Positions 35,424 through 37,938 of a stretch of 37,938 nucleotides of DNA are shown one piece after another. This DNA is from Candidatus Binatia bacterium (lineage in GTDB: Bacteria > Vulcanimicrobiota > Vulcanimicrobiia > Vulcanimicrobiales > Vulcanimicrobiaceae): NCBI GenBank assembly GCA_035541935.1, contig DATKMJ010000065.1:1-37938 (forward strand). The letters run 5' to 3'. Below the pieces are notes generated by a model, which worked only from the letters and a program-made list of their open reading frames with translations, was not told the origin of the DNA and did not search any database. The position numbers and the translations under genes were made by a program. The stretch's first letter is position 1. The number at the start of each line of letters is the position of its first letter.

Positions 35424-36848
35424 TTAGCCTACGGCGCCTTCCATCTCCATCTTGACGAGACGGTTGAGCTCGACCGCGTACTCCATCGGGAGCTCCTTGA
35501 CGAAGAAATCGAAGAACCCGTTGACGATCATCGCCGTGGCGTCGGCTTCGGACAGGCCGCGCGACATCGCGTAGAAGAGCTGCTCTTCGCCGATCTTCGA
35601 GACGCTCGCTTCGTGCTCTACCGTCGAGCGTTGCTCGTGGATCTTCATCGTCGGCTTCGTATCGCTCGACGACTCCTCGTCCATGATCAGCGCGTCGCAG
35701 CGCACGCGCGTCTTCGCGCCGACCGCTCCCGGATGCACCTCGACGAGCCCGCGATAGGTGGTCTTGCCGCCGTGCGCGCTCACGCTCTTGTTCGTCACGA
35801 CTGAGGTCGTGCGCGGGGCGGCGTGGATCACCTTCGCGCCCGCGTCCTGATGCTGGCCCTCGCCGGCGAACGCCATCGAGAGAACCTCGCCGCGCGCGCC
35901 TTCGCCCATCAGATAGATGGCCGGATACTTCATGGTCAAGCGCGAGCCGATGTTTCCGTCAACCCACTCGACCGTCGCGTTGGCGTGCGCTACCGCGCGC
36001 TTCGTCACGAGGTTGAAGATGTTGCGGTACCAGTTCTGGATCGTCGTATACCGGATCGACGCGCCCTCGAGCGCGATCAGCTCGACGACTGCGGAGTGGA
36101 GCGAGGACGTCGAGAACTTCGGGGCGGTGCAGCCCTCGATGTAGTGCACCTTCGCGCCCTTGTCCGCGATGATCAGCGTGCGCTCGAACTGGCCCATGTT
36201 CTCTGCGTTGATGCGGAAGTAGGCCTGCAGCGGCATCGCGACCGAGACGCCCGGCGGCACGTAGATGAACGACCCGCCCGACCAAACCGCGGAGTTGAGC
36301 GCGGCGAACTTGTTGTCGCCCGGCGGAATCACCGTGGCGAAATACTTGCGCACGATCTCGGGGTATTGCTTGACGGCGGTGTCCATGTCGCAGAAGAGCA
36401 CGCCTTGCTCGTCGAGCGCCTTGGTGGTGCTGTGATAGACGACCTCGGACTCGTACTGCGCGGAGACGCCGGAGAGAAACTTTCGCTCCGCCTCGGGGAT
36501 GCCCAAGCGATCGAAGGTCCGCTTGATATCCTCGGGGACGTCGTCCCACGACCGCTCGGTCTGGTCGGTGGACTTCACGAAGTAGTGGATGTTGCCGAAG
36601 TCGATCTCGTTGAGCAGCGCGGTATCGCCCCACGCCGGCATCGGCTTGCGGGCGAAGAGCTCGAGCGCTTTGAGGCGGAACTCGCGCATCCAGGCCGGCT
36701 CGTCCTTCATCGAGCTGATCCGCTCGACGATCTCGCGCGTCAGCCCCTTATCGGACTTGAAGACGTAGTTTTCGGGGTCGTGAAAGCCGTGGCGGTACTC
36801 CTCGATGAGGGCCGAGGGTGCCGCCGGAGCGTCGAGCTTGATTGCCAT
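35424..36848 (-). CDS. sufB: Fe-S cluster assembly scaffold protein SufB
   Basis: 474 residues, full length. SufB hallmarks: WAxxxF-like N-terminus ([15 protein letters not shown]), [35 protein letters not shown], and [18 protein letters not shown] with [15 protein letters not shown] near the C-terminus, including the conserved cysteine of the scaffold site. SufC and SufD, its obligate partners, are not in this window. ATG at 36846-36848, with GAGATGG upstream. Transcribed away from speD; the upstream region carries TTGACT on the minus strand but no convincing -10. Confidence 0.97.
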
Positions 36849-36939: not shown

Positions 36940-36968
36940 TTTACAGCGGGGGGGCTAGGGGGTATGAT
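36940..36968 (+). promoter_or_regulatory. Near-consensus housekeeping-type promoter for the speD leader
   Basis: TTTACA (36940-36945), exactly 17 bases, TATGAT (36963-36968): each hexamer matches the consensus in five of six positions. Predicted transcription start near 36975, about 220 bases before the speD start. The G-rich spacer is unusual. Confidence 0.75.
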
Positions 36969-36969
36969 T

Positions 36970-37194
36970 TCCCCCGGCCCTTCCGTTAAGAGGAGTCCTG
37001 AGCAGGTCATACGGGAGGAGTCACGGTTTGGGGGAGGGCGCGCCCATTCGCGCCATCGCGGCGAGTCGCCCGCGCACCGCTCAAAAGCGCCGGCAGGAGC
37101 TAGCCGATAGGTCGGGGACGTGTCTGCACCGCAGCCGCCAGCCGACGAAGTCCGGAGGTGGGATTCCTCAAAGGTCAGGGAGACCTAAAATAAA
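36970..37194 (+). ncRNA. Structured 5' leader of speD (candidate riboswitch or leader RNA)
   Basis: No gene lies in the 346 bases between sufB and speD. The transcribed part folds into many visible helices: TCCCCC/GGGGGA (36970-36975 with 37030-37035) enclosing TTCCGT/ACGGGA (36981-36986 with 37011-37016); GGCGCG/CGCGCC (37037-37054); a GC hairpin near 37057-37074; CGGC/GCCG (37091-37106); GTCGG/CCGAC (37111-37146) enclosing CTGC/GCAG; and AGGTC/GACCT (37172-37186), whose loop contains most of the GGGAG ribosome-binding site. This arrangement suggests regulated translation. It does not match SAM-I, SAM-II, SAM-IV, SAH, cobalamin or TPP riboswitch cores that I could check by eye. Confidence 0.45.
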
Positions 37195-37605
37195 TTGAAG
37201 GCACTGGGCCGGCACATCGTGTGCGAGCTTTCGGGCTGTCACCCCTCCTTGTTATCGGATATCAATGCCATCGCGGCGATGATGATCTCGGCTGCGAAAG
37301 CCGCGCGCGCCACGATCATGGAGAGCGCGTTTCACCGCTTCGAACCCCAAGGCGTCTCCGGGACGGTCATCTTGGCCGAGTCCCATCTTTCGATCCACAC
37401 GTGGCCCGAGAAGGGCTACGCGGCGATGGATTTTTACACGTGCGGCGACCACACCGACCCCTGGCTCGCTTGCGAACATGCAGCCCAAGCGCTCTGCGCG
37501 AGCAGCGTGCTCGCCACCGAGTTAAAGCGCGGGATCGAGAAGAGCGACGGCGAGTTCACGCACGTTTTGAGCCGCAACCACGACGTTCGCGTGCTCACGG
37601 CATAA
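37195..37605 (+). CDS. speD: S-adenosylmethionine decarboxylase proenzyme (prokaryotic class 1B type)
   Basis: 136 residues from TTG at 37195; the conserved opening KALGRHI directly follows, so this start is likely. Self-cleavage between Glu62 and Ser63 in LAESHLSIHTWPE makes the pyruvoyl cofactor; His68 and Cys83 (FYTCGDH) are the expected catalytic residues. Product is decarboxylated AdoMet for spermidine synthesis. No speE in the window. Ribosome-binding GGGAG is about 12 bases upstream inside the leader's last hairpin. Confidence 0.95.
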   Translation: MKALGRHIVCELSGCHPSLLSDINAIAAMMISAAKAARATIMESAFHRFEPQGVSGTVILAESHLSIHTWPEKGYAAMDFYTCGDHTDPWLACEHAAQALCASSVLATELKRGIEKSDGEFTHVLSRNHDVRVLTA

Positions 37606-37747: not shown

Positions 37748-37938
37748 ATGCGTTTATCATTCGTTCGAGCCTGCATCGCCGCGAGTGCCGGCGCCTTCGC
37801 GATCGCGCTGGCCGCCTGCGCGGGTCACGGCGTCGTTCCGACGGCGCAGAGCCCGATGGCGCAACTTGCGACCGGCGGCGCTATGGCGCCGCTCGCGCTG
37901 AAGACCTGCGCGACCAGCCCGCCGCAATACGAGTGGAT
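37748..37938 (+). CDS. Secreted lipoprotein, 3' end outside the window
   Basis: Open from ATG at 37748 to the window edge (63 codons seen). N-terminus MRLSFVRACIAASAG then a hydrophobic core and lipobox ALAAC (Cys24), followed by a Gly/Ala/Pro-rich linker and KTCATSPPQYEW. It is similar in style to the lipoproteins at 13343 and 31139, but too little is present to name a family. The region before it is relatively A/T-rich, consistent with a promoter; no clear hexamers. Confidence 0.75.
   Translation, partial: MRLSFVRACIAASAGAFAIALAACAGHGVVPTAQSPMAQLATGGAMAPLALKTCATSPPQYEW

Follow-up and report, generated by a model that had tools for sequence, protein, structure and literature searches.

A conserved, covarying RNA domain in the speD leader of an order of Vulcanimicrobiota, a candidate riboswitch

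Among riboswitches, SAM-II and SAM-V are of the H-type pseudoknot type, and validated polyamine riboswitches are few. The spermidine riboswitch is a close SAM-I variant with a four-stem architecture and a terminator, occurring in Gram-positive genera, and the paper on this class describes 13 rare variants of SAM-I (PMC10853860). In this study, we analyzed the leader of speD in a stretch of 37,938 nucleotides (hereafter the window; contig DATKMJ010000065.1, assembly GCA_035541935.1) from Candidatus Binatia bacterium, assigned by GTDB to the Vulcanimicrobiaceae. An earlier note on this DNA had called for an Rfam scan, having seen no known AdoMet, SAH, cobalamin or TPP riboswitch by eye; this observation stands, as Rfam 15 (4227 families, gathering score) gave no match in the whole window, the leader, or 15 loci, mostly from diverse relatives, and permissive thresholds returned only chance matches, below threshold, at the leader. 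RF00162 (SAM-I) was without a match in nine genomes of the group, while control genomes did match. A literature search, with subscription papers and preprints outside its scope, found no described RNA in the phylum.

The leader is flanked by two genes, both confirmed by Pfam, sufB (35424-36848, minus strand) and speD (37195-37605, plus strand), the latter rightly identified in the earlier note. The features of the region are as follows.

36940-36968, plus strand: sigma-70-type promoter TTTACA-N17-TATGAT (TTTACA 36940-36945, TATGAT 36963-36968) with a G-rich spacer
36976-37022, plus strand: P0, a variable 5' hairpin with a CACGG-type strand at its end, from fold and comparison only
37030-37169, plus strand: conserved RNA domain, model R1 of 143 positions (covariance model match 37029-37171, 158 bits, E 1.9e-36; covariation)
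37032-37045, plus strand: PK, GGG 37032-37034 with loop CCC 37043-37045 (case-by-case pair swaps)
37037-37054, plus strand: P2, 37037-37042 with 37049-37054 (4 double events vs 0.09 simulated)
37059-37106, plus strand: P3, 37059-37065 with 37100-37106 (12 double events vs 1.6 simulated)
37068-37094, plus strand: P4a, 37068-37070 with 37092-37094, and P4b, 37072-37075 with 37087-37090 (3 + 3 double events vs 0.2 + 0.3)
37111-37146, plus strand: P5a, 37111-37115 with 37142-37146; P5b, 37117 and 37119-37120 with 37136-37137 and 37139; P5c, 37124-37127 with 37131-37134 (2 + 2 + 4 double events vs <0.1 each simulated)
37154-37169, plus strand: P6, GGAGGUGGGAUUCCUC, with an invariant GGAGGU partly paired with its own pyrimidine 3' strand
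37172-37186, plus strand: hairpin AGGTC-AGGGA-GACCT with the SD (37177-37182) in its loop (16/61 family leaders)
37195-37605, plus strand: speD, S-adenosylmethionine decarboxylase, UUG (TTG) start at 37195 (AdoMet_dc, PF02675, E 1.4e-39)

The near-consensus promoter claimed for speD is present, its pattern being found once against 0.4 expected in shuffles. Because TTTACA-N17-YANNNT is kept in 68 of 72 complete leaders of relatives, with a spacing of 17 nt without exception, a transcript start near 36975 and an untranslated leader of ~220 nt, also as claimed, are credible predictions; in family relatives the predicted length is 185-250 nt. The accompanying statement that gene junctions are otherwise tiny failed, since 10 of 31 junctions exceeded 150 nt in a rough ORF tiling, and the 346-nt sufB-speD junction is not exceptional because speD is divergent from sufB, as it is in most relatives. 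The promoter spacer (window 36946-36962; relatives L001-L085) is rich in G runs, GGGGGG..AGGGGG, family-wide, and sister lineages carry another conserved spacer motif, CAAATGNCC, which may mark an operator or a promoter type.

Searches with the SpeD protein yielded 110 loci, mostly from Candidatus Eremiobacterota / Vulcanimicrobiota MAGs, and the pre-speD alignment revealed a conserved block at 37030-37169, with flanks that vary sharply; P0 differs strongly in both sequence and length among relatives. The fold to be tested was drawn up by visual inspection of the alignment. PK and P2 are interleaved as an H-type pseudoknot, P3 (with one G-A mismatch in the window genome) encloses the P4a/P4b arm and its A-rich loop, and the unpaired junctions (AAGAG, GAUAGG, GGAGGUGGGA) hardly vary, a trait of aptamers. 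PK is GGG/CCC in most leaders, AGG/CCU in L015 (assigned by eye), L016 and L061, and GGU/ACC in L142, the exceptions being a mismatch in L006 and a G-U pair in L085. L142 (1231-1354), which lacks the P4 arm, is the smallest homologue and marks the core.

Across 48 sequences, 96.9% of cells were paired, compared with 28-49% when partners were slid, and two-sided cells numbered 89, compared with 20 in shuffles. Since kinship among sequences can inflate pairing counts, the changes in 66 leaders were also placed on a FastTree tree, on which independent columns were then simulated. The homologous leaders, on which a covariation check had been suggested, carried 30 compensatory double events, whereas the 200 structure-free simulations gave 2.5 +/- 1.5 and never more than 6; these counts are limited by the tree having been built from the same alignment as was tested. 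Each helix but PK lay above all simulations, and PK did not reach significance because its 1-2 nt linker misaligns. A fold-independent scan of 11,172 column pairs placed 28 of 114 double events within the 35 proposed pairs and showed no rival helix, and under a stricter all-pairs G-test only 2 pairs, each belonging to the fold, had E <0.05, and clade effects occurred among the others. G-U cells outnumber A-C cells (123 vs 15), which assigns the RNA to the plus (speD) strand. The single-sequence MFE of the leader is ordinary (z = -0.02) and its fold differs in part from the conserved one; the complementary helices noted earlier are real, with the full set visible only by comparison.

Model R1 was searched in 149 genomes of the phylum Vulcanimicrobiota (Eremiobacterota), counting matches at E <=0.1, and 88 genomes had one, 87 of them strong (E <1e-11) and the exception, G039, at E 0.02. 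Strong matches were confined to two families of the order, the window's own and a sister family, and the domain was absent from sister lineages, where only P6 was kept; family genomes without a match were mostly incomplete, with exceptions that include G074 and G086 at 90-91%. Strong copies occurred once per genome, except for two in G052, and second matches within genomes were weak (E 0.02-1). The two copies in G052 (L143, L144) each precede their own speD-like gene and, with a MAG contamination of 7%, represent a paralogue or a mixed bin. A plasmid collection held nothing beyond a 30-nt match. The RNA lay just upstream of speD in every locus read in which speD was present, with speD 36-51 nt after the P6 start in 49 of 50 loci; L141 has a contig edge just inside speD. 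In most loci speE comes after speD in the same orientation, in many of them at a distance of 430-550 nt. In the window genome, contig C65 shares an overlap of at least 127 nt with C24, and the joined order is speD, a lipoprotein-like ORF, speE, a 4HBT thioesterase, and gcvT-like and gcvH-like ORFs, the last two judged by sequence without a domain scan. The lipoprotein-like ORF (window 37751-37938; L183:1-652), which has no Pfam match, lies between speD and speE in the window's genus. Overall, the stretch 37030-37169 keeps one defined fold across an order, on the plus strand, and always with speD where checked.

P6 is the conserved 3' element of the leader, with a pattern unique in each genome tested, and its invariant 5' strand accounts for a pairing without compensatory changes. 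Its GGAGGU matches the 16S rRNA anti-SD in its general form. The ordinary SD of speD is AGGAG, some 9-13 nt before the UUG, so that P6, ~40 nt from the start, is not an ordinary SD. In sister lineages of the class, whose leaders are short or different, and in two more distant loci, GGAGGUSGG-pyrimidine hairpins stand before speD without the domain. Since sister lineages keep P6 alone and P6 is not the ordinary SD, we propose from these comparisons that P6, as a site of docking or regulation, may be older than the rest of the domain, the aptamer being a later addition in the order. Four distant speD leaders (L086, L087, L214, L215) are predicted to form other large structures (MFE -56 to -67) ahead of the same P6 motif, to which another leader domain may thus be attached. 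The UUG of speD (window 37195-37197) is a conserved weak start, found in 56 of 61 family leaders. The last hairpin of the leader, which had been described as holding the SD in its loop, does exist here, while its conservation ends with the genus or close relatives; its arms never vary, and it therefore has no covariation support. As a general expression platform it was rejected, being found only in close relatives.

We conclude that the leader is almost certainly a conserved cis-regulatory RNA, that it is quite likely a metabolite riboswitch, and that it probably represents a new class, most likely a riboswitch acting on speD-speE translation. Of the earlier proposal, the structured regulatory leader is supported (by conservation, covariation, speD-only association and the Rfam negatives) and the SD-loop platform is not, while the leader may sense AdoMet or a polyamine. 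Near-invariant junctions, a fixed pathway context and a single copy fit an orphan riboswitch, and translational control is suggested over termination because no terminator-like site was found in the leader. Spermidine is favored as the ligand, a tentative choice made because the RNA occurs only at speD-speE and not at other SAM genes. In such a mechanism, the domain would serve as aptamer for a metabolite of the polyamine pathway, with spermidine, the end product of speD-speE, as foremost candidate, and would work as an OFF switch. Ligand binding would lock the domain together with P6, whose GGAGGU offers a perfect anti-SD match ~40 nt before the UUG start, and would thereby deprive 30S subunits of the docking place from which they reach the weak AGGAG/UUG start. 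Docking at P6 is a more doubtful component, and the complete picture (a spermidine aptamer of a fold unrelated to SAM-I, acting by sequestration of a hairpin on which ribosomes dock and which, older than the aptamer, survives alone in sister lineages) is less likely still. That sister lineages manage without the domain counts against a riboswitch. P6 and the SD are adjacent, but no alternative pairing of either (anti-SD, anti-P6) proved to be conserved, so that the switch between two states did not come to light; this and the lack of compensatory changes in P6 also count against it. By eye, and in one MFE fold, the pyrimidine strand of P6 could also pair with GGGGA of P5 or with the GGG of PK; this was discarded, as the divergent group does not keep it.

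The domain could instead be an aptamer for SAM (or SAH, MTA, dcSAM) and not for a polyamine, in which case high SAM could switch speD on. The gene catalyzes the SAM-consuming step, and with no SAM-I riboswitch in the nine genomes of the group this niche is left free, but copies at met or SAM-cycle genes would be expected too, whereas the model finds only the speD copy genome-wide, which makes a SAM sensor rather unlikely. Less probable again is that a protein (SpeD/SpeE or a regulator) binds the leader, as in autoregulated ribosomal-protein leaders; the large fold, single target, invariant single-stranded positions and the retention of P6 alone in sister lineages would agree with this; nothing direct speaks against it, and sequence cannot tell a protein site from an aptamer. 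We consider it improbable that the fold is constitutive, i.e. that it only shields the mRNA or gives the ribosome a standby site (P6) without sensing: the strong anti-SD match of GGAGGU, kept phylum-wide, and the UUG start in 56/61 leaders would be accounted for, but near-invariant junction nucleotides over 140 nt would be left unexplained.

Control of speD by a short upstream ORF or leader peptide, for which GUG or AUU triplets after GGAGG in P6 could serve as starts, is very improbable, because all three frames occur among the distances to the speD start, neither a stop nor a peptide is conserved, and loop indels are not multiples of three; this candidate was rejected, having no frame conservation. 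Even further from likely is a conserved DNA element of a divergent sufB-speD promoter region, suggested by the divergent sufB of most relatives, since the compensatory changes and the G-U bias require an RNA on the speD strand.

As a riboswitch fixed to speD-speE, unrelated to SAM-I and from a little-studied phylum, this RNA would be either the second one to sense spermidine or a novel sensor for the SAM cycle. Vulcanimicrobium alpinum, the phylum's only cultured species, placed in Vulcanimicrobiaceae by NCBI, carries the RNA at 613422-613569 of genome G041, which we infer to be that of strain WC8-2, with a chromosome of 3,508,363 bp (PMC9758169). The ligand question is therefore testable at once, and the covariation is sufficient for a firm structural model.

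Like orphan riboswitch candidates, the speD leader RNA has conserved sequence, covarying structure, a fixed gene context and a single copy, and it shows what is generically asked of a riboswitch, namely a leader RNA that is conserved, covaries and stays with genes of related function; unlike those candidates, it is confined, within the searched genomes, to one order and one gene. It has the H-type pseudoknot in common with SAM-II and SAM-V, but is much larger, with P3/P4 and P5 arms, and without an Rfam match. With the spermidine riboswitch (PMC10853860) it shares its position in leaders of polyamine synthesis genes including speD/speE, in cis, as judged by leader comparison, whereas its architecture is a linear pseudoknot-plus-arms, lacking both a terminator and a SAM-I match. 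By the tests made, the RNA is not a member of the SAM-I/spermidine-variant group, although it may work alike.
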